A DNA stretch of 64,000 nucleotides. Origin: Olsenella uli. Lineage in GTDB: Bacteria; Actinomycetota; Coriobacteriia; Coriobacteriales; Atopobiaceae. Location: assembly GCF_016899935.1 (NCBI RefSeq), contig NZ_JACJJK010000002.1, positions 124,001-188,000 of the forward strand, written 5' to 3'. Of the stretch, positions 11,440 to 48,316 are shown in pieces. The translations under genes and the position numbers were made by a program. The first letter of the stretch is position 1. Each line of letters opens with the position of its first letter. Under the pieces are notes generated by a model that saw only the letters and a program-made list of their open reading frames with translations, was not told where the DNA came from and did no database searches.

Positions 11440-12351
11440 ATGCGCGTCGCACGCACCGTTGAGGATCTCATTGGATCGACGCCCCTCGTGGACCTCTCGC
11501 CGCTGGCCGGCGGGACGGCCCGCGTCCTGGGCAAGCTCGAGGCCGCCAACCCTGGCGGCTCGGCCAAGGACCGCGTGGCCCGCGCGATGGTCGATGACGC
11601 CGAGCGCACCGGGCGCCTCTCCCCCGGCGGCACCATCATCGAGCCCACGAGCGGCAACACCGGAGTCGGCCTCGCGATGGTCGCCGCCGCGCGTGGCTAC
11701 CGGCTCGTCCTCACGATGCCCGACACCATGAGCGTGGAGCGCCGCGCCCTCGCGGCCGCCTACGGCGCGCGCATCGAGCTCACGCCGGGCGCCGAGGGCA
11801 TGGCCGGCGCCGTCGCGCGCGCCGAGGAGCTGGCCGCGACCACCCCCAACTCCATCATCGCCGGACAGTTTGACAACCCCGCCAACCCGCAGGCCCACTA
11901 CGAGACCACCGGCCCGGAGATCTGGGCGGACACCGACGGCGCCGTGGACGTGCTCGTGGCCGGCGTGGGCACGGGCGGCACGCTCTGCGGCTCCGCCCGC
12001 TACCTCAAGGAGCTAAACCCGCAGGTTCGTGCCGTCGCGGTGGAGCCCGCCGAGTCGCAGGTCCTCGCCGGCGGCGCGGCCGGGCCGCACGCGATCCAGG
12101 GCATCGGCGCCAACTTCGTCCCCGGCAACTTCGACCGCTCCCTCGTGGACGAGATCGTCCCCGTGAGCTCCGCCGACGCGCTCGCCACCTGGCGCCGCCT
12201 CGAACGCGAGCTGGGCCTGCTCGTGGGCATCTCCTCGGGTGCCGCCGTGGCTGCAGCGCTCCGGCTCGCCGCGCGCCCGGAGCTTGCGGGCAAGACCGTC
12301 GTCGCTGTGCTTCCCGACACCGGCGAGCGCTACCTCTCCGTGGAGGCGTGA
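11440..12351 (+). CDS. cysK: Cysteine synthase (O-acetylserine sulfhydrylase)
   Basis: CysK makes L-cysteine from O-acetylserine and sulfide using PLP. The 303 residues carry the PLP lysine Lys43 in NPGGSAKDR, the substrate loop TSGNTGVG, the phosphate-binding GTGGT and SSGAA near the C-terminus. I chose the ATG at 11440, preceded by AAGGAGG, over an in-frame upstream ATG at 11401. The stop overlaps the cysE start (TGATG), so the two enzymes of the pathway are co-translated and may form the cysteine synthase complex. Confidence 0.95.
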
Positions 12352-12965
12352 TGGCGGGCGAGAAGACCAGCTGGTCGCAGCTCCGCGCGCTCGTTCGCGA
12401 GGACGCGCGGGCCGCCTTCGCGCGCGACCCCTCCGCCGACTCCGTCGAGGACGTCACGCGCTTCTCGGTGGGCTTTCGCATCGTGCGCGCCTATCGCCGG
12501 CAGCACTGGCTCTACGAGCGCGGTCACCGGACGCTCGCCCTGTGGCTCGCCAGGCGCTCGCGCGTCAGGTACGGCGCCGACATCCACCCCGCCGCGAGAA
12601 TCGGCCGACGCTTCACCGTGGACCACGGGATCGGCGTGGTCATCGGCGGCACGGCCGTCATCGGCGACGACTGCCTCATGTACCAGGGGGCCACGCTCGG
12701 CATGACCGGCAAGCACGGCGGCAAGCGCCACCCCACGCTCGGCAACGGCGTGCTCGTGGGCGCCGGCTCCATCCTGCTCGGCGCCATCACCGTCGGCGAC
12801 AACGCCCGCGTCGGCGCAGGCTCGGTCGTCGTCGACGACGTCCCCGCCAACGTCACCGTCGTGGGCAACCCGGCGCGCGTCGTGCGCACCCGCGCCTGCC
12901 CCCTCGTCAACGACGTCGTCTGCGTCACCGACGACTTTGGCAAGAGCTGGCTCATGGAGTCGTAG
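12351..12965 (+). CDS. cysE: Serine O-acetyltransferase
   Basis: CysE makes O-acetylserine from serine and acetyl-CoA for the upstream CysK. The 204 residues have an alpha-helical N-terminal part and a left-handed beta helix of hexapeptide repeats (HPAARIG, VDHGIGVVIGGTAVIG, GAGSILLGAITVGDNARVGAGSVV). The catalytic His of DHGIG is visible. The start ATG at 12351 has GGAGG before it and overlaps the cysK stop. Length is short compared with the E. coli enzyme but normal for many Gram-positives. Confidence 0.93.
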   Translation: MAGEKTSWSQLRALVREDARAAFARDPSADSVEDVTRFSVGFRIVRAYRRQHWLYERGHRTLALWLARRSRVRYGADIHPAARIGRRFTVDHGIGVVIGGTAVIGDDCLMYQGATLGMTGKHGGKRHPTLGNGVLVGAGSILLGAITVGDNARVGAGSVVVDDVPANVTVVGNPARVVRTRACPLVNDVVCVTDDFGKSWLMES

Positions 12966-12990
12966 GCTCTGCCGGCCCATGCCCCGTGCT

Positions 12991-13187
12991 CAAACAGGCC
13001 GACTTGGCAGAGATTCAACCGCGCTGACGCAAAAAGATGCCAACTTGGCAGAGCGAGAAGAACCACCAACTGGGCGTTCTTCTCGCTTGCCGCATAAAAG
13101 GGCCGACTTGGCACGGGATTTCCTGCCAAGTCGGCCAATTCGTACGCGCCGCAACGCCATCCTCTGCCAAGTCGGCAGTCTTGTGCA
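12991..13187. repeat. Inverted-unit array A (41-bp step, CGACTTGGCAGAG units)
   Basis: Three forward units with the sequence (C/A)ACTTGGCA (conserved A at 13002, 13043 and 13106) are followed by two reverse units (13131 and 13172). The forward pair at 13002/13043 and the reverse pair are each exactly 41 bp apart. Between the forward units is an inverted pair of the core motif, GCGAGAAGAAC at 13053 and its complement ending at 13086. The third forward unit and first reverse unit can form a hairpin with about a 9-nt loop. It fills the space between the convergent cysE and GNAT genes. Confidence 0.85.
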
Positions 13188-13195
13188 ACGGTAGC

Positions 13196-13666
13196 CTACA
13201 ATACCTGCTCGAGGCAGGTCTTGAGCGGGGTCATGCCCATCGCGTCGTAGAACGCGCGGGCGCCGGGGTTGCACTCCCAGACGTTGAGCGTCACGTTGTG
13301 GCAGCCCAGCCCGCGCGCGAAGTCGAGCACGTACCGGTAGAGGGCGGTGGCGACGTGCCGCCCGCGATGGGTCTCGTCGACGCAGATGTCGTCGATGTAG
13401 AGGCTCACGATGGGCTGCCAGCTGTTGGACTCCCGATAGTCCTGGACCTCGCAGAAGGCGTGGCCGAGCACGGTCCCGTCGTCGTCCACGGCCACGAACA
13501 CGGGGTGCGCGTCGTCCGCAAACAGGGCGAGCAGCTCCTCGTCGGTGTACTTGCGCGTCCCGGAGCGGAAGATGTCCGACCTCCCCGCCGCGTGCACCTC
13601 GAGCACCTGGCTCAGCAGGTTGCGCACGCCCTCGAGGTCCTTCTCGGCCGCCCGTCTAATCTGCAT
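13196..13666 (-). CDS. GNAT-family N-acetyltransferase
   Basis: The 156-residue cytosolic acetyltransferase has the acetyl-CoA binding motif A region DDICVDETHRGRHVATALYRYV and the terminal NVTLNVWECNPGARAFYDAMGM. The substrate is unknown. The start at 13666 follows TGAGGAG and overlaps the end of the ATP-grasp gene by 11 bp, so it is translated from the same mRNA as that protein and the esterase-like protein upstream. Confidence 0.85.
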   Translation of the reverse strand: MQIRRAAEKDLEGVRNLLSQVLEVHAAGRSDIFRSGTRKYTDEELLALFADDAHPVFVAVDDDGTVLGHAFCEVQDYRESNSWQPIVSLYIDDICVDETHRGRHVATALYRYVLDFARGLGCHNVTLNVWECNPGARAFYDAMGMTPLKTCLEQVL

Positions 13667-14870
13667 CCGTCTCCTCACGCTCCCTCTCGTGGACGTACGC
13701 CACGAACTCGTCCGCCGCCTCGCTCGTCTCGAGGCGCGCCGTGTACTGATAGTTTCCCATGTCGTCGGAGAGCGCGTCGGGCACGCGCCCGTGCGCGACG
13801 ATCGCGTCGGCAAAGCGCGTAAGCACCTCCTCGTGGGAGTGCGCGTAGCGATGTGCGTCCCGACGGCTCGCATACACGCAGAACGCGTCCGTGCCGCAGC
13901 CCTCCACGCGACGCTCGTCAAAGCAAATCATGTCGGCCCAGATCTGATAGACGTTCACGCCGTGCGCGTAGTCCATCATCTCCGGCGTGGTCCCGCCGGG
14001 CGGGCGCACGTTGACCTCGAGGCCCACGTAGTCGCCGGCGGCGCCGAGGCCCGGGTGGTCGCGGTCCAGCCGGAAGAACTCGAGGTGGACGAAGCGGCTC
14101 GTGAGGCCGAAGGCGCGCACCGTGGCCCGCCCCAGGCGCGCGAGCTCGGGGTCCACGGTCGGGCACGAGCGATACGCGAGGTCGAGCCCGCCGTAGACGA
14201 CGTCGGCCATCGACGGCGGGAACTCCTCCTGGTTCTCAAAGAGCGGCTCCCCCCGGCTGTCCAGCACGGCGTCCCAGGAGCAGATGCTCCCGTGGACGAG
14301 CTGCTCGATGACGTAGGGCACGTCGCCGTGGTCGGCGAGAAGCGCGCGCAGGTCGGCGTCAGAGGCGAGGACGCGCGTCCCGCCCGCGCCGACGCCCACC
14401 TCGGGCTTGGCGAAGACGGGGTAGTGGCCCATCTCGCCGATGAACCAGCGGGTCTCGTCAAAGGTGGTGAGGCAGGTCTGGCGCGCCGTGGGGACGCCGG
14501 CGGCGGCGTAGAGGGGCTTCTGGGCGGCCTTGCTCTGCCAGCGCGCGACGGTGTCCGGCCGGGGGCCGTGCGCGACGTTGAAGTCCTCGCGCAGGCGGGC
14601 GTCGAGCGGAAGCCAGTGCTCGTTGTTCGACTCGATCCAGTCCGGCTTGCCGTAGTGGAACGAGAAGTACGCGACGGCACGATAGACCTCGTCGTAGTCC
14701 TCGAGGTCGTGGACCCAGTAGTACTCGTCGAGGGAGTCACGCAGCTCGGGCGCGAGCGCGTCGTACGGCGTGTCGCCGATGCCGAGGACGCGCGCGCCGT
14801 CTCGCCGCAATGCCACGCAGAACTGCCAGTAGACATGCGGGAACTGCGGCGAGACGAAGACGAAGTTCAT
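13656..14870 (-). CDS. ATP-grasp domain protein
   Basis: The 404-residue cytosolic protein has an ATP-grasp fold like carbamoyl-phosphate synthetase or PurK-type ligases. Visible elements are the central lysine region YPVFAKPEVGVGAGGTRV, the hinge YVIEQLVHGSI, and the metal-binding FVHLEFFRLD with GLEVNVRPPGGTTPEMMDY. Such enzymes join a carboxylate to an amine with ATP. The substrate is not predictable. The ATG immediately follows the stop codon of the esterase-like gene, and the GNAT gene overlaps its 3-prime end, suggesting one three-step pathway. Confidence 0.85.
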   Translation of the reverse strand: MNFVFVSPQFPHVYWQFCVALRRDGARVLGIGDTPYDALAPELRDSLDEYYWVHDLEDYDEVYRAVAYFSFHYGKPDWIESNNEHWLPLDARLREDFNVAHGPRPDTVARWQSKAAQKPLYAAAGVPTARQTCLTTFDETRWFIGEMGHYPVFAKPEVGVGAGGTRVLASDADLRALLADHGDVPYVIEQLVHGSICSWDAVLDSRGEPLFENQEEFPPSMADVVYGGLDLAYRSCPTVDPELARLGRATVRAFGLTSRFVHLEFFRLDRDHPGLGAAGDYVGLEVNVRPPGGTTPEMMDYAHGVNVYQIWADMICFDERRVEGCGTDAFCVYASRRDAHRYAHSHEEVLTRFADAIVAHGRVPDALSDDMGNYQYTARLETSEAADEFVAYVHEREREETDAD

Positions 14871-16292
14871 TTACTTGGCGCTCTTGGCCTTGGTCGCGGG
14901 CTTGGCGGCGGGCTTGGTCGTCGCGGGCTTGGCGGCGGCAGCGGGCTTCTTCTCGGCGGCGGGCTTGGTCGCGGGCTTGGTCGCGGCAGCCTTGGTCGAG
15001 GCCGGCTTCTTGGCGGCCGGGGCCTTGGCGGGAGCGGCGGGCTTCTCGGCCTTGGCCGGCGTCGCTGCCTTGGTAGCCTTGGCCGGGGCGGCGGCCTTCA
15101 CGGCCTTGGCGGGAACCGCGGCCTTGGTGGCCTTGGCGGGCGTCGCGGGCTTCTCGGCCTTGGCCGGGACGGCCGGCTTCTCCACCTTGGCCGGGGTCGC
15201 GGCCTTGGTCGCAGCTGGCTTCTTGGCGGCGGCCTTCGGGGCCGTCGTCGCCTTCTTGGCGGCCGGCTTCTTCTCCTCGGCGGCCGGCTTCGCGGCAGTG
15301 GCCTTGGTCTCGGCAGGCTTCGCGGCAGGGGCCGTGGTCGCAGCGGGCTTCGCGGCCGTCTTGGTCGCGGCCGGCTTCTTGGCGGCAGCGGCCTTCGGCG
15401 CGACGTCCTTCTCGGCGTCCGCGTCCTTCTCGGCCTTCTTGGCGGCCGTCTTGGTCGCGGCCGGCTTCTTCGCGGCAGCAGTCGCAATCGTCTTCTTGCG
15501 GGTGGTCGCGCGCTTCTTGGGGGCGGGCTTCTCGGCCGCCGTGGTCTTCTCCACGTCGGCGAGCACGATCGGCAGGAAGTAGCGCAGCTGCTTCTTCCAC
15601 CAGAACCAGGTGTGCGTCACGTCCGCGCCCCAGTAGTCGCACCAGACGTCCACGCCGAGGCGCGCGAACTGCTCGCCCAGCGCGCGCGTGGAGCGCAGCG
15701 CGTCGGCCTCGGAGCCCTCCTGGCCGGTGCAGAACAGCAGCTGGCGCTGGTTGTAGACGGCCACGTACGGGTGGTCGACGGGCATCTGCGACAGGAACGC
15801 GCAGGGGGTGTTGTCGTAGAGCGTGGCGTCCATCCAGTCGCCGAAGTAGCGACGGGCGTCGTAGCAGCCGGAGAGGCAGACGCAGCCCTGGAAGAGGTCC
15901 GGGCGGCGCAGCGCCACGACGGAGGCCTGCGTGGCGCCGGCGTCGAAGCCGAGGGCCAGCGGGCGCGCCTTGGTCTTGCCCATCTTGGCCACGAGCGGCA
16001 CGAGCTCGTCGACCACGTAGTGGTAGTAGGTCTCCTGGCGCTGGGCGCGCTCGGCGGCGTCGCCGGTGCCGCCCCAGGACTCGTCGTCGATGGTCTCGGT
16101 GCAGAAGAGCTGGATGGTGCCGGAGTCCAGGTAGTCGGCCAGCTCGTCGATGACGCCGACCTCCTCCAGGCTCTCGGGCGCCTGACCCTGCGTCGGGAAG
16201 ACCACGACGGGCAGGCCCTTCTTGCCGTAGGAGATAACGTGCAGGTCGCGGCCGAGGATGCTGCTCGTGCACATGATGTTCTTCTTGTCCAT
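14871..16292 (-). CDS. Esterase-like alpha/beta-hydrolase fused to a Lys/Ala/Pro-rich histone-H1-like tail
   Basis: Residues 1 to about 247 resemble the putative-esterase family (ISYGKKGLPVVVFPTQ, SGCYD, YWGADVTHTWFWW with the likely catalytic His227). The position where I expect the nucleophile elbow GxSxG reads GFDAG, so Asp117 replaces the serine. Residues 248-473 are almost only Ala, Lys, Pro and Thr in PAKA/KPAA repeats, strongly basic like bacterial histone-H1-like proteins or cell-wall/nucleic-acid-binding tails. No signal peptide is present. The start at 16292 follows GGGGGAAAC. The downstream ATP-grasp gene begins at the next base after the stop. Confidence 0.8.
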   Translation of the reverse strand: MDKKNIMCTSSILGRDLHVISYGKKGLPVVVFPTQGQAPESLEEVGVIDELADYLDSGTIQLFCTETIDDESWGGTGDAAERAQRQETYYHYVVDELVPLVAKMGKTKARPLALGFDAGATQASVVALRRPDLFQGCVCLSGCYDARRYFGDWMDATLYDNTPCAFLSQMPVDHPYVAVYNQRQLLFCTGQEGSEADALRSTRALGEQFARLGVDVWCDYWGADVTHTWFWWKKQLRYFLPIVLADVEKTTAAEKPAPKKRATTRKKTIATAAAKKPAATKTAAKKAEKDADAEKDVAPKAAAAKKPAATKTAAKPAATTAPAAKPAETKATAAKPAAEEKKPAAKKATTAPKAAAKKPAATKAATPAKVEKPAVPAKAEKPATPAKATKAAVPAKAVKAAAPAKATKAATPAKAEKPAAPAKAPAAKKPASTKAAATKPATKPAAEKKPAAAAKPATTKPAAKPATKAKSAK

Positions 16293-16501
16293 GTTTCCCC
16301 CAAAAGGTTGGATCATGTCCCCGAATGCGCATCAGTCATGATACCGCTCGCGCCCGGGACGCATGTTTTGCCTGTGTAAGGGTGACACAAATCGGAAACT
16401 TCCGCCATGTCGGGGCCCCGTGGGGCCGCAGTTTGTGGCGCGGCGGCGGGCGGGGCTCGTGATACCCTTTCCTATCGTGAGACTTTGAGGGAAGGGGCCC
16501 C
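16293..16501. promoter_or_regulatory. Divergent promoter region between the esterase-like and DUF1846 genes
   Basis: This 209-bp spacer must hold promoters for both directions. TATCAT on the minus strand near 16336-16341 is a possible -10 for the esterase-like operon. The DUF1846 side has no box I can support. Confidence 0.3.
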
Positions 16502-17983
16502 ATGCGCATCGGCTTTGACAACGACAAGTACATCGCTCTTCAGGCGGAGAAGATCCGCAAGCGCATCGGGCAGTTCGGCGGCAAGCTCTACCTCGAGTTC
16601 GGCGGCAAGCTCTTTGACGACTACCACGCGAGCCGCGTCCTTCCCGGCTTTGCGCCCGACTCCAAGATCCGCATGCTCGAGAGCCTCAAGGACGACGTCG
16701 AGGCCATCATCGTCATCAACGCGGACAACATCGAGAACGCCAAGCGCCGCTCCGACATCGGCATCACCTACGAGGAGGACGCGCTGCGCCTCATGGACTC
16801 GTTCCGCGCGCGCGACCTCATGGTCGGCGGCATCTGCATCACGCACTTCACCGGCCAGCCGCACGCCGAGGCCTTCCAGCGCCGCCTCGAGGCGATGGGC
16901 GTCTCAGTGTGGCGCCACTACCTGATCGACGGCTACCCCTCCGACGTGAACCACATCGTCTCCGACGAGGGCTTCGGCAAGAACGACTACATCGAAACCA
17001 CGCGCCCGCTCGTGGTGGTAACGGCCCCCGGCCCGGGCTCGGGCAAGCTCGCCACCTGCCTCAGCCAGCTCTACCACGAGCACAAGCACGGCGTGCAGGC
17101 CGGCTACGCCAAATACGAGACCTTCCCGGTGTGGAACCTCCCGCTCAAGCACCCGGTGAACGTGGCCTACGAGGCCGCGACCGCCGACCTCGACGACCGC
17201 AACATCATCGACCCGTGGCACCTGGAGGCCTACGGCGAGGTCACCGTCAACTACAACCGCGACGTGGAGACCTTCCCCGTGCTCAAGGCCATGATGGAGA
17301 AGATCGCCGGCGAGAGCCCCTACCAGTCCCCCACCGACATGGGCGTCAACATGGTGGGACTCTGCATCTCCGACGACGAGGTCTGCCAGGAGGCGGCGAG
17401 AAACGAGATCGTGCGCCGCTGGTTCGCCGCAGCCGAGGAGCTGCGCCGCACCGGTGAGGGCAAGGAGGCGCTCGACAAGATCGAGCTGCTGATGAGCCAG
17501 GTGGACGTGACCTGCGACCACTCCCCCGCGCACCAGGCGGCGCTCGCCAAGGAGGAGGCGACCGGCGGCCCGGCGGCGGCGATGGTGTTGCCCGACGGCG
17601 CGCTCGTGACCGGCAAGACCTCCGAGCTCATGGGCGCCGCGGCGTCGCTTCTGCTCAACGCCGCCAAGCACATGGCCGGCATCCCCAAGGAGACCTACGT
17701 GGTGAGCGAGGAGGCGCTCGTGCCGATCTGCCACCTCAAGACCGAGCACCTGCGCAGCCACAACCCGCGCCTGCACTCCGACGAGATGCTCATCGCGCTC
17801 TCGCTCTCCTCGGCGGAGAATGCGCAGGCCGAGGCCACCGTGGACGCGCTCGAGCAGCTCGCCGGCTGCGACGCGTACTTCTCGGTCATCCTCTCCGAGG
17901 CCGACAAGAGCACCTACCGCAACCTCGGCATCAACGTCTGCTGCGAGCCCAAGTACGAGCGTCGCGGCTACTATCACCGCTAG
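16502..17983 (+). CDS. DUF1846 (UPF0371) family protein
   Basis: The 493-residue protein matches the DUF1846 family along its whole length: MRIGFDNDKYI at the start, FGGKLFDDYHASRVLPGF, LVVVTAPGPGSGKLATCLSQLYHE with a P-loop-like glycine stretch, and the C-terminal TYRNLGINVCCEPKYER. Family members are cytosolic; the structure of a streptococcal member is known, but I know of no established function. The start is preceded by GGGAAGGGG. It is the first of three plus-strand genes, followed by a HAD phosphatase and asparaginase. Confidence 0.88.
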   Translation: MRIGFDNDKYIALQAEKIRKRIGQFGGKLYLEFGGKLFDDYHASRVLPGFAPDSKIRMLESLKDDVEAIIVINADNIENAKRRSDIGITYEEDALRLMDSFRARDLMVGGICITHFTGQPHAEAFQRRLEAMGVSVWRHYLIDGYPSDVNHIVSDEGFGKNDYIETTRPLVVVTAPGPGSGKLATCLSQLYHEHKHGVQAGYAKYETFPVWNLPLKHPVNVAYEAATADLDDRNIIDPWHLEAYGEVTVNYNRDVETFPVLKAMMEKIAGESPYQSPTDMGVNMVGLCISDDEVCQEAARNEIVRRWFAAAEELRRTGEGKEALDKIELLMSQVDVTCDHSPAHQAALAKEEATGGPAAAMVLPDGALVTGKTSELMGAAASLLLNAAKHMAGIPKETYVVSEEALVPICHLKTEHLRSHNPRLHSDEMLIALSLSSAENAQAEATVDALEQLAGCDAYFSVILSEADKSTYRNLGINVCCEPKYERRGYYHR

Positions 17984-36345: not shown

Positions 36346-37074
36346 CTAGTTGGACACGTCGAACTCAAAGACGTTATTCTCCCCGCGATACGTCGCAATG
36401 GAGTACTCAACGGCAACACCATCCTCGTTGCGCCCCACGGTGTGCAGCAAAATCAGGGGATCTCCCGGCTCCACGTCGAGGAGAGCGGCGAACGCGGCAG
36501 TCGCTTTAATTGCCTCAAGCCGTCGACGCGCGCGCACGACCGGCTTACCTCGCTCAGTCATTGCAGCATAAAGCCGCTTGGTCTCGAAGTCGTAGTCCTC
36601 AAAATCCGGATAGAGCGCACAGGGAATGTAGCTCTCAACAAATACGTTGGCACGGTCATCCACGTAACGCAGACGCACAAGCTTATATACTTCAGAGCCG
36701 TTGGAGACCTCAAGGTTCTTCGAAACATCCGAATTTGCGCGAACTCTCTTGAAGTTGATCACCGTAGTGCGTATGACACGTCCAACGTTTCGCTGCTCAT
36801 CCTCAAAGCTTCTGATTCCCATGGCCATAAACTGATCGACCTTGGGCCGCGTTACGATACTGCCTCGACGCTTCCTCCGTTCGAGATACCCCTCATCGGA
36901 GAGAATCTGCAGCGCCTGGCGAATAGTCGAGCGACTCACCCCATAGCTCTGCGAGAGCTCGATCTCGGACGGGATGGGCATCCCCTCGGGATAGGTCCCA
37001 TCACTGATCTTCTCGTAGAGGTCATCTCGAATCTCTGTGTAGAGAGCCATCGGTTCATCCAGTCTTTCGAGCAT
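36346..37074 (-). CDS. GntR/HutC-family transcriptional regulator of the PTS island
   Basis: The 242-residue regulator has an N-terminal winged helix (MPIPSEIELSQSYGVSRSTIRQALQILSDEGYLERRKRRGS) and a C-terminal UTRA ligand-binding domain (KLVRLRYVDDRANVFVESYIP; GRNEDGVAVEYSIATYRGE). UTRA domains usually sense a sugar phosphate. It lies downstream of PTS IID on the same strand with a hairpin between, so it probably represses this operon and the divergent deoC-manA. The start is uncertain: 37074 has only a weak ribosome site, and 37047 (MALYTEI) is an alternative. Base composition is lower in G+C than neighbours outside the island. Confidence 0.9.
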   Translation of the reverse strand: MLERLDEPMALYTEIRDDLYEKISDGTYPEGMPIPSEIELSQSYGVSRSTIRQALQILSDEGYLERRKRRGSIVTRPKVDQFMAMGIRSFEDEQRNVGRVIRTTVINFKRVRANSDVSKNLEVSNGSEVYKLVRLRYVDDRANVFVESYIPCALYPDFEDYDFETKRLYAAMTERGKPVVRARRRLEAIKATAAFAALLDVEPGDPLILLHTVGRNEDGVAVEYSIATYRGENNVFEFDVSN

Positions 37075-37150
37075 ATTTTTCTAATTGTATGTCATATGAG
37101 ACGCTTCACCAACACGTCTCAACTCTGTTCTACGACGTAAGACGCGAGAG

Positions 37151-37179
37151 GCGCCGGACCGGTTTTCCCGGTCCGGCGC
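37151..37179. terminator. Hairpin between PTS IID and the GntR gene
   Basis: A perfect 12-bp inverted repeat GCGCCGGACCGG with a 5-nt loop follows the IID stop on the minus strand. There is no U-tract, so it may attenuate transcription into the regulator gene or stabilise the upstream mRNA. Confidence 0.6.
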
Positions 37180-37204
37180 TCAGAACATAGCTTGTATTCA
37201 CCAA

Positions 37205-38059
37205 CTAGAAGACACCAAGCAGGCAGAAGACAGTGACCGCAACAATGAAAATGATGATCACCTTCGTTGGCGAGAAGTGCTTCTTGCTGATCATCCACCA
37301 AGTGAGAAGAACAGCGATAAGCGGCAGAAGACACGGGAAGATGCTGTTAAGCGTGTCCTGCAGCGGGAGCCACTCCTCGGTGCCGTGAGGAATACTCAGC
37401 GTCGTCGTGAGAGCAATGTTGCCCGCAGCCAGTGCACCAACGACCATAATTCCCAGAACGTTAAAGGCGTTCATAATGCGGCGCGCACCCTCGCCGACGA
37501 TGAGGTCGATAGCGCTCACGCCCATCTTGTATCCCGTCCGGAAGCATCCGAACGAGACCGCAGTGCCAACGATGGCATAGGCGACAATATAGAAAATCGG
37601 ACCAATCGCACTGCCCTCTGAGGCGAGACTCATGCCGATGGAGAGCAGAATCGGAACAACAATGCCCTGCATGACAGAATCACCGATGCCGGCAAGGGGA
37701 CCCATGAGCGTCGTCTTGACGTTGTTGGGCATCTCCTCAGAAACTCCGCCGCCGAGGGCGATGTTCTCCTCGAGGGAGGCGGTTATTCCGTTGATGAGCT
37801 GCCCGGTCTGGGGTTCGGTGTTGAAGTACACCGCTTGCCTCATCAGCAGACGCCTGCGGGCTTCAGGATCATCCTTATAGTACTTGTGTCCGAAGGGGAT
37901 ATAGGACCAGGCATACGCAGGACCCTGAAGCTTCTCCCAGCCCATCGAAGAGAGGTGCGTGCACGCCCAGCGGAGCCAGATGGTATTGAGGTCCTTCTTG
38001 GTTAGTCGACCGGGGTTCTCCGACTTCTGAACGCGGACGGCGTCTTCGGTGTTTGCCAT
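37205..38059 (-). CDS. PTS mannose/fructose/sorbose-family EIID component
   Basis: The 284-residue membrane subunit of a mannose-class phosphotransferase system has the family patterns LTKKDLNTIWLRWACTHLSSMGWEKLQG at the N-terminus, VKTTLMGPLAGIGDSVMQGIVVPILLSIGMSLA in the middle and hydrophobic C-terminal segments. With IIC it forms the channel. It starts 14 bp after the IIC stop; AAAGGAG precedes the ATG. The sugar cannot be named from sequence. Confidence 0.93.
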   Translation of the reverse strand: MANTEDAVRVQKSENPGRLTKKDLNTIWLRWACTHLSSMGWEKLQGPAYAWSYIPFGHKYYKDDPEARRRLLMRQAVYFNTEPQTGQLINGITASLEENIALGGGVSEEMPNNVKTTLMGPLAGIGDSVMQGIVVPILLSIGMSLASEGSAIGPIFYIVAYAIVGTAVSFGCFRTGYKMGVSAIDLIVGEGARRIMNAFNVLGIMVVGALAAGNIALTTTLSIPHGTEEWLPLQDTLNSIFPCLLPLIAVLLTWWMISKKHFSPTKVIIIFIVAVTVFCLLGVF

Positions 38060-38073
38060 TATCTTCTCCTTTC

Positions 38074-38913
38074 TTAGAAGAGATCGTCGTCTTCGTAGGC
38101 AGCCTCATGGGCAGACGGCTCGGCGACTGTCTCCACAGCCATCTGCCCCTCCTGCTTATTCGCAGCGAGATAAGTCAAGTACGCGACGAGCGCGGCAAGG
38201 AACACCACCGCGACCATGCTCAGACCCGCAAACGAGACGAGGACGAACCCCGCAAAGAAGAAGATGAGCTGCATCTTGTTCTTAATCACGATATTCATGA
38301 GCATGCCGATTCCGAGCGCAGGGAGCACACCGCCCAGAACCGAGATGATGTGAGTAACGATCTCGGGGACGCTGCTCAGGAGACTATCGACAACGCCTTG
38401 CCCGAAGTAGACAACGAGAAAGACGGGAACGGCGCGGAAGACGAGTGTCACGAGCTGGGGATAGACGATGTGCATGAGGGTAATCCCATGCTCGTCATTG
38501 TTCTCAGCCGCCTTCTCAACGCCGCTATTGAAAAACGAGGTAAGAACGACCTGCGCGTTATAGAAAATAAGGCCCAGCGTCTGTCCCACGAGAATGGAAA
38601 GGGTGACAGCAACGGCAGGATCTTTAGTGGTCGCCATGGCAAGGCCAATTCCACCGTATGAGGCGTAGGTAATCTCCGAGTTGGTCGCCCCACCCGTCGA
38701 AAGGTTGGCGATGAACACCGCCTGGACCGCAACGCCACAAAGTACGCCTTGGGTAACGTCGCCAAACACCAGACCACAGAGCAAACCGGCCACGAGCGGA
38801 CGGCCAACTATGTAGTAGCCGCCCGTCATACCGAGCAACCACGGACTTTGGATTGCGCCCAAATAGCAGAAAAGGCCACACATCAGCGCTTGAAACAACA
38901 GTGCCGCATCCAT
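38074..38913 (-). CDS. PTS mannose/fructose/sorbose-family EIIC component
   Basis: The 279-residue polytopic membrane protein starts ALLFQALMCGLFCYLGAIQSPWLLG and has the IIC pattern GDVTQGVLCGVAVQAVFIANLSTGGA, then several hydrophobic segments. It is the sugar-translocating subunit partnered with IID. GAGGAGG precedes the ATG. The C-terminal 30 residues are a charged cytosolic tail. Confidence 0.92.
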   Translation of the reverse strand: MDAALLFQALMCGLFCYLGAIQSPWLLGMTGGYYIVGRPLVAGLLCGLVFGDVTQGVLCGVAVQAVFIANLSTGGATNSEITYASYGGIGLAMATTKDPAVAVTLSILVGQTLGLIFYNAQVVLTSFFNSGVEKAAENNDEHGITLMHIVYPQLVTLVFRAVPVFLVVYFGQGVVDSLLSSVPEIVTHIISVLGGVLPALGIGMLMNIVIKNKMQLIFFFAGFVLVSFAGLSMVAVVFLAALVAYLTYLAANKQEGQMAVETVAEPSAHEAAYEDDDLF

Positions 38914-44253: not shown

Positions 44254-44615
44254 TACAGCAGCGCCCTCTCCCACTCGGCCTCGCGGAAGCCCACGAGCAC
44301 GAAGCCCTCGCCCACGACGATCGGCCGCTTGACCAGCATGCCGTCCTCGGCGAGCAGCGCGAACGCGTCCGCGTCCGTCATGCCGGCGTCAAGCTGCGCC
44401 TTCACGTTGCGCTCGCGGTAGAGCCGGCCGCTCGTGTTGAAGAAGCGGCGCACGGGCAGCCCGGAGCGCGCCTGCCACGCGGCGAGCTCCTCGGCCGTCG
44501 GGTTGTCCTCGACGATGTGCCGGTCGGTGTACGCGACGCCGTGCGCGTCCAGCCACGCCTTGGCGCGCCTGCAGGTACTGCACTTCGGATACTCAACAAA
44601 CAGCACGTTAGACAT
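44253..44615 (-). CDS. ArsC/Spx-family thioredoxin-fold protein
   Basis: The 120-residue protein has a redox CxxC in YPKCSTCRRAKAWL and the C-terminal family pattern KRPIVVGEGFVLVGF. It could be an arsenate-reductase-like or Spx/YffB-type protein; arsenate activity is not implied by context, as no ars genes are present. The start at 44615 overlaps the end of the DNA methyltransferase gene by 8 bp. Confidence 0.85.
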   Translation of the reverse strand: MSNVLFVEYPKCSTCRRAKAWLDAHGVAYTDRHIVEDNPTAEELAAWQARSGLPVRRFFNTSGRLYRERNVKAQLDAGMTDADAFALLAEDGMLVKRPIVVGEGFVLVGFREAEWERALL

Positions 44616-45975
44616 GGCGGGTCCTTTCAATCTCTGCAATCTCTCTCCCTATCGCATGGGGCACACCGACGACAAGGGCGTTGCCCATGCAGAAGGCTCT
44701 TCTGCCGTCAGTCATTCCGGTGTCGGTCCAGCCCCGAGGAAAGCCCTGGAGTTGGTCGAGCTCATCGGGAACGAGTCGGCGGTAACGTCCATCCTTGGTC
44801 TTGATGACGTGCTTGAACCGAGAGGCACCACGACCGCCCTCGCCCGTAAGAATCGTGCGAGAAGGACGGTCGAGCGCGTCGGGGAACGCCATCGCCCCCT
44901 CGGAGTATCGGTAGGTAAATCCCGTCTTCTTGTTGACGCGCTCCTCGCTCTTCGCACCCTTGAGGTACTCCCACTTGGGAAGCTGCTCCGGCTCGATGAA
45001 GAACTCCTCCGGCACGTCGGAATCGTCGACAAGAACGTCACCAAGCACCCGCCGCGCGCCCGTGAACACTTCGGTCACCTTGCAGGTCGCAACGTGGCCG
45101 TCCTGCATGACGCCGGCGTCCAGAAAGGGCGAGTCCTTTCCTCCCTTGTTGAACTCACGCGTCGCAATATAGGGGTCATCCGGGATGTCAACGTGGTGAA
45201 TCGTCTCGGAGGCGGGCTCTTCGATAGGAAACGCCCGTGCCATCAGACCACAGGAAATCTGAGCGTCAAGATTCCACTGCTCCCCCGTCAGGCGCGCAAG
45301 AATGTACGTGCGCTTGCGTCGCTGCGGGAACCCGTATTCCGCACTGTTCACCACACGCCACTCAACCGAGTAGCCAAGGTCGTTGAGACAGGACAGGATG
45401 ATCGCAAAATCACGGCCGCGCTGAGACGCGGGGCTCTTGAGCAGGCGATCGACGTTCTCGAGAAGAACGTATCGGACGGGGCTCTCCGGTCTGCTCTTCA
45501 ACTTGAGGAAGCGGTAGATATCCCACCAGAGCACGCCCTTCTTGCCCTCGATACCACCCGCCTGCGAGAGGGGCCTGGCGACGGAGTAGTCCTGGCAGGG
45601 AAATCCCCCCACCACCATGTCTACGTCAGGGATGTCCACCTCGCCGCGCTCGAACCGGTCAAGAACGACGTGAATGTCCTCGTTCAGCACAGCGTCCTCG
45701 CCAAAGCGGGCTCGGTAGCAGCGGGCTGCAAACTGCTTGGTCTCGGTTCCCGGCGGCTCCCACTGATTGGCCCAGATGGTCTTGAAGGGGCCCGCCGCCG
45801 GCAGCTCCATATCAGGCTCATCAGGGTTGTGGTATCCCTCGAGCCCCAGCCTGAACCCACCGACGCCCGCAAAGAGCTCGGCCACTTTGATGGTCTTCTC
45901 GGACGACACGTTTCTCCGTTCGCTATCTGTGTCGCATTGCCAGATCATCATAACCGATCGACCGGACGAGATCAA
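44608..45975 (-). CDS. DNA (cytosine-5)-methyltransferase of a Sau3AI-like R-M system
   Basis: The 455-residue enzyme has the ordered C5-methyltransferase motifs: I (ELFAGVGGFRLGL), IV with catalytic Cys (GGFPCQDYSVA), VI (LLENVDRLL), VIII (QRRKRTYILA) and the late X motif (AFCMGNALVVGVPHAIG). The target-recognition region lies at about residues 255-370. The start may be TTG at 45975, overlapping the endonuclease stop, or ATG at 45951. Together with the MutH/Sau3AI-like endonuclease it would protect GATC by methylating cytosine. Base composition is lower in G+C than flanking genes, consistent with transfer. Confidence 0.92.
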   Translation of the reverse strand: MISSGRSVMMIWQCDTDSERRNVSSEKTIKVAELFAGVGGFRLGLEGYHNPDEPDMELPAAGPFKTIWANQWEPPGTETKQFAARCYRARFGEDAVLNEDIHVVLDRFERGEVDIPDVDMVVGGFPCQDYSVARPLSQAGGIEGKKGVLWWDIYRFLKLKSRPESPVRYVLLENVDRLLKSPASQRGRDFAIILSCLNDLGYSVEWRVVNSAEYGFPQRRKRTYILARLTGEQWNLDAQISCGLMARAFPIEEPASETIHHVDIPDDPYIATREFNKGGKDSPFLDAGVMQDGHVATCKVTEVFTGARRVLGDVLVDDSDVPEEFFIEPEQLPKWEYLKGAKSEERVNKKTGFTYRYSEGAMAFPDALDRPSRTILTGEGGRGASRFKHVIKTKDGRYRRLVPDELDQLQGFPRGWTDTGMTDGRRAFCMGNALVVGVPHAIGREIAEIERTRHV

Positions 45976-47306
45976 CTCGACAGGACCCGTTCAATCTCGC
46001 TCTGCAGATAGTCCTGGTTCAACCAAAAACACTTCTTCACGACAGGCGGGCCAAACGGCTGTGGACGCGTGTCCCGCGAATCACGCCCGTGTGGCCTTAC
46101 GTGGCAGCATCTGTTTTCACTAGACTTAACCGATATCTCGGCACGCCCCTTCCGCACGTTGTCTCGCATCTGGTCGTAGCAGCGCTTCGCGTCCCTGAGG
46201 TCACCCTCCGGCATCTGCCAAAAACAGATGTCACGAAGTCGATAGGCGCCCGCCTCGTCTTCGCGATAGAGTACGAAAAGATACTTCTTCTGGAGATAGC
46301 CCAAAAAGTCGGAGTCCTCAAAGTCTCGCTCAGCAAGGTCGAAGTAGCTGAACGCCGGGAAGGACAGTGCCTCCTTTGGACGACCGCCCTTCTTGAGACG
46401 TATGGTCTTGGGAACGATACCCGCCTTTGCAAACTCTTCAATCTCCGCGTCGTCGGCAACACCCAGAATCTTCTTGGTGATGCGCGCACAACGATTCTTT
46501 GACTTGGAGACGCCAAATTGCGTCGCCAGTTCTTCTTCGGTCATCCCGAAGTACGGAGAGAACCTCTTCCTGAGAAGCCCGAGAAGATTGAGGTCCTTCT
46601 CTTCAGCCTCCCTTGGAATTCTTCTCAACTGATCAAGAATCCGACGTTGGATTGCCGTCATGTATGAGGCTTTAAGCGCCCAGGCGCGCGGCTTTGCCGG
46701 AACATCCGAGAAAGGCTGCCCGGTTCTTACGGACGAGTCCTTGGCCTTGGTACACGCCTCGAGATACAAGGTGTCGCCACCGGAGATATCCTCGGCATGG
46801 CCCGCTCGAACCTTGTTTACGACCGTCTCCCAGTCGCACTTAATCTGAGGAAGGTCCTCGGCGGGGAAGCCCCACTGGACGACAGATTTAATCTCATAGT
46901 CCAACGGGCTTTTGTCAGGCTCATAGAGATACGACACCAGCAGTATGCTCTTTGCCTTCTCCATGAGATGGCTGTGCTCAAAGTCCTCGTTGACCACAGT
47001 CATGTAGTTGATTTGCGAAATGACGAGACGCTCCTTTGCGGAAAGCTCTCCCTTTCCGTTCTTCTTGAGCGGAGTTGATTTGAGTTCAAGTCCAGCTCCA
47101 TCGAAGTCTGCGGTCGGCCTGCTGTTTGCCGTAAGACCAAAATAGAGCTCTTCAAGTGCGTTGCCGAAGGCCCCTCTCCTCCTACGAGGGTCATCAATAT
47201 CTGTTGCTCCAGTCGCTTCGCGGAGAGTCTTTCCAGCCAGATGTCCCGCATATTCAAGAATGGACTCCGGGTCGTTTGGGTCATAGTCAATCCACATCTC
47301 ACCCAT
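45972..47306 (-). CDS. MutH/Sau3AI-like type II restriction endonuclease
   Basis: The 444-residue protein has the MutH/Sau3AI catalytic pattern: RRRGAFGNALEELYFG followed by DFDGAGLELKSTPLKK (D...ExK). Sau3AI has two MutH-like domains and is about 490 residues; the length here is compatible. Sau3AI cuts GATC. The cytosine methyltransferase lies directly downstream and overlaps. GATC is frequent in the window (at least five sites in the first 600 bp), so the site is not depleted. GGAGGGGG precedes the ATG at 47306. Confidence 0.85.
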   Translation of the reverse strand: MGEMWIDYDPNDPESILEYAGHLAGKTLREATGATDIDDPRRRRGAFGNALEELYFGLTANSRPTADFDGAGLELKSTPLKKNGKGELSAKERLVISQINYMTVVNEDFEHSHLMEKAKSILLVSYLYEPDKSPLDYEIKSVVQWGFPAEDLPQIKCDWETVVNKVRAGHAEDISGGDTLYLEACTKAKDSSVRTGQPFSDVPAKPRAWALKASYMTAIQRRILDQLRRIPREAEEKDLNLLGLLRKRFSPYFGMTEEELATQFGVSKSKNRCARITKKILGVADDAEIEEFAKAGIVPKTIRLKKGGRPKEALSFPAFSYFDLAERDFEDSDFLGYLQKKYLFVLYREDEAGAYRLRDICFWQMPEGDLRDAKRCYDQMRDNVRKGRAEISVKSSENRCCHVRPHGRDSRDTRPQPFGPPVVKKCFWLNQDYLQSEIERVLSS

Positions 47307-47707
47307 AGACGTCCCCCTCCGCTCCAAACGGAATCACTGAACCGACTTTATCCGAATCGGCCTAAATCGGCATCGTCCTTTTCTCCTGATAGACACTCTG
47401 TACGAACTGGGATAATTGCCGGCATCACCCATGGACTCCTGAAACCATCTTGGCGAACAAGCAGAGCACGTCTCCCTGTCCCCAAGACGAACAGAACCCG
47501 TCTGATGTCTCCACTCCCAACGCCCTCGCCGAGGTTTGGGTTCACGTTTCGCCACCTTCCCAACTAGCCCCGTGGACCACACCCCCGCTGACCTGCTCAA
47601 ACGTGATTCGTCTTTCGACTTGACCACGAAGCATGAACCCAAACCACGGGAAGGGGCATCCTCGCACGCCGCGCGTTATACTCGCCTCAGGCAACGAAGG
47701 GAGCCAC
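47307..47707. other. Gene-free 401-bp stretch upstream of the R-M genes
   Basis: No convincing gene is present; the short open frames lack ribosome sites and family resemblance. It has a 12-bp perfect inverted repeat (GGTTTGGGTTCA at 47533-47544, complement at 47634-47645). TATACT at 47677-47682 is a good -10 for the HAD gene at 47708. The left part must hold the promoter for the endonuclease gene. Confidence 0.5.
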
Positions 47708-48316
47708 ATGGACCGCAAGCTGCGCGCGATCGTCTTTGACATGGGCAACGTGCTCATGACCTTTGACGGCCCGTACTTCGCCTCGCACTTCACGGACACG
47801 CCCGAGGACGCGGCGCTACTCAACGACGCCCTCTTCGGCTCCGTCACGTGGGCGCTTCTCGACTCCGGCACCGTTAGCCACGAGACGATGGCGCGCGTGG
47901 CGGCCGCGCACCTCCCCGAGCGCCTGCACCCCAACCTGCGCGAGTGCCTCGCGCGCTGGCCGGAGCTCTCAGAGCCCCTCGACGCGGTCAACGAGCTGGG
48001 CATCCGCCTCAAGCGGGAGGGCTACGGCATCTATGTGCTCTCCAACGCCAACACGCGCATCATGGAGCAGCTCGGACACGCGCCGATCACGCCCCTTCTC
48101 GACGGCTGCCTCGTCTCCGCGCAGGAGCGCCTCATGAAGCCGGACCCCGCGATCTTCCGCCTCCTCTGCGAGCGCTACGACCTCGCGCCCGAGGCGTGCC
48201 TCTTCGTGGACGACAACGCGGACAACTGCGAGGGCGCGCGCGTCGCCGGCATGCACGCGTACCACTTCACCGGTGACGTCGCGGAGCTGGAGGCCACGAT
48301 CCGCGCGCTGGGCTAG
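47708..48316 (+). CDS. HAD-superfamily hydrolase, subfamily IA (YihX-like)
   Basis: The 202-residue phosphatase has motif I VFDMGNVLM, in which the second Asp is replaced by Asn as in YihX-type and dehalogenase-like members. Motif II is LSNAN, motif III the lysine in RLMKPDPAIF and motif IV FVDDNADNCEGA. YihX acts on glucose-1-phosphate; the substrate here is unknown. GAAGGGAG precedes the ATG. The 3-prime end overlaps the convergent kinase gene by 4 bp. Confidence 0.87.
   Translation: MDRKLRAIVFDMGNVLMTFDGPYFASHFTDTPEDAALLNDALFGSVTWALLDSGTVSHETMARVAAAHLPERLHPNLRECLARWPELSEPLDAVNELGIRLKREGYGIYVLSNANTRIMEQLGHAPITPLLDGCLVSAQERLMKPDPAIFRLLCERYDLAPEACLFVDDNADNCEGARVAGMHAYHFTGDVAELEATIRALG

Follow-up and report, generated by a model that had tools for sequence, protein, structure and literature searches.

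A Thermophilibacter/Olsenella operon joins a basic-tailed, serine-less alpha/beta-hydrolase-fold protein to an ATP-grasp ligase and a GNAT acetyltransferase

We analysed a stretch of 64,000 nucleotides from Olsenella uli (contig NZ_JACJJK010000002.1, positions 124,001 to 188,000; hereafter the window), in which three abutting or overlapping genes on the minus strand encode, in this order, an alpha/beta-hydrolase-fold protein with a long basic tail, an ATP-grasp protein and a GNAT acetyltransferase. An original prediction, made from the sequence alone, had grouped a protein with a histone-H1-like tail, an ATP-grasp ligase and a GNAT in one operon, and this grouping was borne out, although the interval it gave (13656-16292) covers the first two genes and leaves most of the GNAT gene outside. 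The first gene (14871-16292) encodes 473 amino acids from a conserved ATG at 16292; the mechanically called open reading frame begins at 16316, and the downstream start, also chosen in the prediction, is the better one because the proteins of the genus agree from MDKK (or MSKK) onward and diverge upstream. The ATG of the second gene (13656-14870, 404 amino acids) lies directly 3' of the stop codon of the first, and the second and third genes (the latter at 13196-13666) overlap by 11 bases. An antisense open frame of 944 amino acids (13545-16379, plus strand) is probably spurious, arising from the high G+C content and the repeats, and no RNA element or clear promoter was found within 12900-16600.

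The hydrolase domain of the first protein (residues 1-250; 15543-16292, minus strand) matches PF00756 with 34.4 bits, over a cut-off of 22. Its predicted model (predicted local distance difference test, pLDDT, 92; predicted template modelling score, pTM, 0.90) resembles feruloyl esterases, S-formylglutathione hydrolases, Ag85 and MPT51, with VIA Z values of about 20-23, in lists from which the absence of a family does not exclude that family. At the elbow, where catalytic members carry the Ser of GxSxG, residue 117 is Asp (GFDAG) in the window protein and in 19 of 19 loci of the genus; the proposal of a pseudo-esterase with Asp in place of Ser117 thus held up in alignment with Ser-type relatives. 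The acid and the His of PF00756 esterases align with Glu195 and His227, which would be the retained members of the triad. Compared with the CE1/S-formylglutathione hydrolase/Ag85 group, including MPT51, the window protein has the same fold and conserves the acid and the His, but differs in its Asp at the nucleophile position, its basic tail, its ligase partner and in having no signal peptide apparent by eye. MPT51 is itself a non-catalytic member of this group.

The tail (14871-15542, minus strand) comprises the last 223 residues, followed by the stop codon, and is made up chiefly of Ala (89), Lys (54), Pro (30) and Thr (27), with a net charge of about +43 and all 54 Lys codons being AAG. It scores as tandem repeats, with PAKA/PAKV recurring at a nine-residue spacing (seven starts) and ten occurrences of KPAA, and as a low-complexity, positively charged Lys/Ala/Pro segment it is H1-like; of the tail of about 225 Ala/Lys/Pro/Thr-rich residues described originally, the composition and the likeness to H1 stand, and the length is corrected to 223. 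Across the genus, all 20 tails have 21-26% Lys and a net charge of +28 to +44 while their lengths (156-238 residues) and repeats vary, as would be expected if composition is selected. The ratio of non-synonymous to synonymous substitution rates (dN/dS) of the tail is 0.34-0.52, on uncertain alignments. Searched against the window's own genome, the tail matched only itself at E values up to 0.01, under a composition correction that would hide look-alikes. The C-terminal KPAA domains of AlgP and PhaF are likewise Lys/Ala/Pro-rich and H1-like, and the H1-like tail of Pseudomonas AlgP is needed for the normal spacing of polyphosphate granules, according to PMC9239181. The window protein differs from these in its N-terminal domain and its nonapeptide array, and by analogy with them its tail may bind polyanions.

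The second protein is related to L-amino-acid ligases. Its best sequence match in the Protein Data Bank is RizA (4wd3; E 4.9e-11), with BacD also high, and for its predicted model (pLDDT 91) ranks 1-5 in Foldseek are all L-amino-acid ligases (RizA, BacD/YwfE and the Bacillus licheniformis L-amino-acid ligase). The ATP-grasp fold is shared with RizA and BacD (YwfE) over nearly the whole length, at 13-18% identity in the Foldseek rows; what sets the window ligase apart from them is its constant hydrolase partner. Residues K114, K118, K155, E189, E285, N287 and R289 are conserved, and K155, E189, E285 and N287, which we take to be those contacting nucleotide and Mg, are present in all eight sequences aligned; the ligase looks intact. 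The third protein matches PF00583 with 65.9 bits (cut-off 20.7), and its nearest solved relative is BH1408 (4e0a).

Counting the window genome, the hydrolase gene was identified in 29 of the 31 same-genus genomes searched, the exceptions being G026 and G027. In all 19 same-genus loci read at length the order of hydrolase, ATP-grasp and GNAT is intact, and a DUF1846 gene is divergent from them; an order conserved in 19 of 19 loci points to an operon arrangement beyond chance. The hydrolase domain is 92-94% identical in Olsenella sp. An270, Candidatus Olsenella stercoravium, an uncultured Olsenella and an Atopobium metagenome-assembled genome (MAG), and 87% identical in Thermophilibacter gallinarum. 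In six comparisons dN/dS was 0.12-0.32 for the hydrolase domain and 0.15-0.29 for the ligase; the Asp-form hydrolase domain is under purifying selection. A misread frame or a decaying gene is contradicted by these ratios and by the conservation.

Outside the genus, a scan of named genomes gave at least 590 stretches, of which 536 encoded a relative and 80 were kept. The hydrolase and ATP-grasp genes adjoin in Lachnospiraceae, other Clostridia, Selenomonads, Treponema and MAGs labelled as Alphaproteobacteria, in both gene orders, and an adjacent ATP-grasp on the same strand was scored for 74 of 128 rows of the tree described below, under distance limits chosen by the analyst. Judged from these sequences, the pair is a module of long standing in Clostridia, Selenomonads, Treponema and Atopobiaceae, and most of its hydrolases have an intact GxSxG and are tailless. 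Tailless homologues with an intact GxSxG lie beside the same ATP-grasp family in L082, L084, L086, L090 and many Clostridia, so that neither the Asp nor the tail belongs to the basic system, and the original prediction, which had built the operon around both, largely gives way on this point. In two loci a second hydrolase is directly beside the hydrolase/ATP-grasp pair (L256:6379-7137 and L260:4828-5637; PF00756 checked for L256 only).

Among 396 genomes of Coriobacteriia, we identified the first-group hydrolase in 67 and the ligase in 63; both occur in 62, the hydrolase alone in five and the ligase alone in one (62 of 68 with either, kinship ignored), under thresholds set after the lists had been seen (best E of about 1e-69 or better for the hydrolase, about 1e-50 or better for the ligase). 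Outside the genus, 42 genomes have the hydrolase, five of them scored as non-Ser, and the ligase is missing from four of these five as compared with one of the 37 others (Fisher 2e-4), a count in which G271 and G321 were assumed to be Ser unseen and G337, with one Ser and one Asp copy, was taken as Ser.

The GNAT was found in 83 of the 396 genomes at E values up to 1e-20. Of these, 59 also have the ligase, and in 39 (25 in the genus and 14 outside it) the GNAT is no more than 300 bases downstream of it. In eight genomes of one other genus the GNAT follows the ATP-grasp gene by 17-72 bp, although the hydrolase gene is on another contig or at a distance of about 12-13 kb. Such association as the GNAT shows is with the ligase and not with the tailed protein. 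A GNAT that follows the ligase where the hydrolase is elsewhere favours a small-molecule role over acetylation of the lysine tail; ligation followed by acetylation, as first proposed, was a fair guess, its lysine version being the less likely one.

We investigated the history of the nucleophile in a tree of 137 distinct sequences (154 aligned rows less 17 duplicates), which left out L001-L030, L055-L081 and L135-L164, taken as duplicates of genus loci, and the weak Clostridia matches L230-L254. The position is Ser in 85 sequences, Gly in 25, Asp in 23, Ala in three and Glu in one, while the His is kept in 134 and the Glu in 133. At minimum, 11 changes are required at this residue, and seven if only Ser and non-Ser are distinguished; the tree was made by a quick method that gave warnings of long branches meeting, and the 11 changes are accordingly approximate. 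The genus forms a clade with support of 100, in which all 20 sequences carry both Asp and tail, and its sister (support 94) is L193, with Ala at the nucleophile, no tail and no ligase match in its genome. Asp also arose in L192 and in L203/L204. On this tree, Ser is lost several times independently.

Of 44 positions with at least 95% constancy across 84 Ser forms, 92% are retained in the Asp form of the genus. Three such positions, G192, D228 and D66, differ in at least 20, at least 19 and at least 18 of the 20 genus sequences respectively; G192 is near Glu195 and D228 beside His227. The next most often changed is H122, which varies in a few Ser forms too. Taken together with these changes at the rim, the replacement of Ser by Asp suggests that the protein is probably no longer a serine hydrolase. 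A second, diverged Atopobiaceae hydrolase group keeps 59% of the 44 positions (21 Gly rows). This group (L052, L054, L205-L223) mostly has Gly at the nucleophile position and mostly long, less basic tails that look coiled-coil-like by eye; one member, L224, has Ser, and no ATP-grasp was seen in the stretches fetched for the group.

Tails of more than 60 residues are found on 29 Ser, 23 Asp, 20 Gly and two Ala sequences of the 137, and are absent from 56 Ser, five Gly, one Ala and one Glu; none was seen outside the Atopobiaceae among the loci read. A single joint innovation of Asp and tail was rejected, as tails occur on Ser, Gly and Ala copies and an independent-pair test shows no link. Judged by their distribution on the tree, Asp and tail were acquired separately, each as a lineage-specific change.

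In Oribacterium (L108 and L129) a Gly-type hydrolase accompanies an ATP-grasp protein without the ATP-binding-loop region and with the E-x-N motif lost, and both partners look dead there, as judged from an alignment of L108 and L129. The ATP-grasp of L121 (Lachnospiraceae JC7) appears by eye to be shortened in the same region. In these three loci the Gly- or Glu-type hydrolase is divergent from the shortened ATP-grasp gene, and a VTC-domain gene follows (PF09359 checked in L108), together with what are presumably DUF4956-like and CotH-like genes.

A described analogue of the window operon is asnO-ngg, for the N-acetylglutaminylglutamine amide, in which acetylation, peptide-bond formation, an amidotransferase and a peptidase come together, as set out in PMC8070244. 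The statement that no system of this composition had been described was thus too strong. Bond formation and acetylation would stand together in the window operon as they do in asnO-ngg, where a peptidase is also present, but there the single protein Ngg carries out both acetylation and bond formation. The window's operon was rejected as a member of this pathway: Ngg (TIGR03103) has no match over its cut-off in the window's genome (best 25 bits against 569), nor in 14 control genomes, and no AsnO is among the operon's genes, no genome-wide AsnO search having been made. Our literature search, which took in the accessible parts of PMC8070244 and PMC2922099, gave no description of the hydrolase/ATP-grasp pair, though literature beyond it may hold one, and a search on lysine-rich tails in Actinobacteria likewise gave nothing describing the pair. 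Membership in a known anti-phage defence system was rejected, PADLOC models giving no family for any of the three proteins at E values up to 0.01 (hydrolase without its tail). Amidoligase work by Iyer and colleagues, reportedly covering ATP-grasp and acetyltransferase domains, may mention this family.

We suggest, tentatively and at rather less than even confidence, that the operon is an amino-acid or dipeptide ligase module with an acetyltransferase and a demoted, non-serine hydrolase, the last probably a non-catalytic binding or regulatory subunit held in place by a polyanion-binding tail. It would be the version, proper to Thermophilibacter/Olsenella, of a two-gene module with a wide distribution, made up of an ATP-grasp amino-acid (dipeptide) ligase and an alpha/beta-hydrolase partner, the ancestral hydrolase having been a serine enzyme that probably trimmed, transferred or checked the product of the ligase. 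Within the Atopobiaceae, some genera would have acquired a GNAT downstream of their ligase, making the product there probably an N-acetylated amide, and the hydrolase would have gained its Lys/Ala/Pro tail, which should hold the protein, and any complex that it forms, on polyanions such as DNA, RNA or polyphosphate. A change of Ser to Asp in this genus, with alteration of the rim of the active site, would have left a protein that probably serves the intact-looking ligase as its binding or regulatory subunit. Gene structure, conservation, co-occurrence, repeated loss of Ser, purifying selection and predicted folds are what the sequences show; the chemistry and product of the ligase, the formation of a complex, binding by the tail and the loss of activity are inferred from them.

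Several observations weigh against this proposal. The ligase scores only 12.9 bits, below the Pfam cut-off of 19.8 that its relatives in L132 (28.3) and L053 (21.6) exceed, and the His and Glu kept in the Asp form would leave room for some catalysis with Asp. Taken as independent pairs, the association of non-Ser hydrolases with a missing ligase is weak (sign test: 3.6 pairs on average in the same direction and none opposite, median p 0.125); the Ala-type genome G396 keeps its ligase, about 5.8 kb off on the other strand; and among the 128 rows, all 20 in which a non-Ser hydrolase has a ligase beside it on the same strand belong to this genus. Since the genus keeps its ligase beside an Asp hydrolase, a rule tying the loss of Ser to that of the ligase does not account for it. 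In L120, the hydrolase is beside GshA-like and EgtC-like genes, with a different gene at the ATP-grasp position (a 404-amino-acid frame without a match to ATP-grasp, L120:2-1216, that precedes the three), and 24 of the 83 GNAT-bearing genomes have no ligase.

A working Asp117 would make the protein an active hydrolase of changed chemistry, like the haloalkane dehalogenases and epoxide hydrolases, which use an Asp nucleophile. The Asp of all 20 genus sequences beside a retained His227 and Glu195, the rim residues changed along with it, the purifying selection on the domain and the further origins of Asp in L192 and L203/L204 would all fit such an enzyme, and two epoxide hydrolases are among its weak sequence matches (E 0.085 and 0.3). 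These two matches are not significant, however, and no epoxide hydrolase is among the 50 fold matches listed, which is decisive neither way; other lineages have in place of Ser either Glu or the Ala or Gly that cannot be nucleophiles, and the substrates suited to an Asp nucleophile are alkyl halides and epoxides, not esters or amides, so that we consider an active enzyme of this kind unlikely. A pathway of cysteine or low-molecular-weight thiols, comparable to mycothiol or glutathione chemistry, in which the ligase would work with an S-acyl-thiol hydrolase and an N-acetylating GNAT, seems similarly doubtful. It would account for the five loci (L114, L115, L119, L132 and L133) in which ATP-grasp and hydrolase genes are followed by a GshA-like ligase, and this in all but one of the five by an EgtC-like class II amidotransferase (families PF04262 and PF13230, checked only for L132), for cysE and cysK next door in the genus and for the S-formylglutathione hydrolases of the fold group. 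But cysE and cysK lie on the opposite strand, the GshA-linked ligases are only about 40% identical, and searches of the window's genome, run without a positive control, brought up neither that GshA nor the EgtC-like protein. In L114 (3812-7755) and L132 (3808-7807) the four genes form a tight operon, perhaps of a gamma-glutamyl or thiol pathway.

If instead the GNAT acetylates the lysines of the tail, the tail would be a regulated tether, as in HupS and HupB, whose hold on DNA or polyphosphate is switched. Acetylation of Streptomyces HupS, a protein with a lysine-rich C-terminal domain, lowers its DNA binding according to PMC11229371, and in all seven distinct non-genus loci with a GNAT within 1.5 kb downstream (L103, L181, L182, L195, L196, L199 and L200) the hydrolase is tailed. 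Against this stand the eight genomes where the GNAT follows the ligase and the hydrolase gene is elsewhere, the 24 in which it occurs without the ligase, and the many tailed copies without a nearby GNAT; we regard tail acetylation as quite improbable. A wider scheme that includes it has only a slim probability in our estimation: in it, a ligase-hydrolase couple whose hydrolase repeatedly became non-catalytic (in Oribacterium the ligase too) would have a structural or sensing role, and the Thermophilibacter Asp form would be a regulator tethering the active ligase to the nucleoid or polyphosphate by its H1-like tail, whose lysines the GNAT may acetylate. Finally, three unrelated genes could have been kept together by slow rearrangement, and the flanking DUF1846, HAD, asparaginase, cysE, cysK and pth2 genes are likewise largely syntenic across the genus and the GNAT is separable; yet the hydrolase and ATP-grasp genes are adjacent in several phyla while their order changes, and their co-occurrence in Coriobacteriia is near-perfect, which disfavours chance retention for that pair and leaves it improbable overall.

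The conserved neighbours of the operon are probably outside the module. The serine O-acetyltransferase gene cysE (12348-12965, plus strand) and cysK are convergent with the GNAT gene, on the opposite strand to the operon, and the DUF1846 gene (PRK13663; 16502-17983, plus strand) is divergent. Elsewhere in the window, a C-5 cytosine methyltransferase gene (PF00145) overlaps one for a MutH-domain protein (PF02976) at 44608-47327 (minus strand), where the G+C content is lower (0.57 over 46001-48000); the two are probably a type II restriction-modification pair. A further region of low G+C content (0.56; 36346-38913, minus strand) encodes, from a reading of its open reading frames, a GntR-type regulator and two membrane subunits of the phosphotransferase system (PTS) mannose family.

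The hydrolase/ATP-grasp pair is kept together in gut and rumen bacteria of several phyla, is apparently unstudied, and may make an unfamiliar metabolite derived from amino acids. The repeated loss of Ser with the rest of the domain kept offers a natural series on how an enzyme becomes a binding protein, and the tailed forms add a metabolic enzyme fold to the granule and nucleoid proteins to which H1-like tails are fused.

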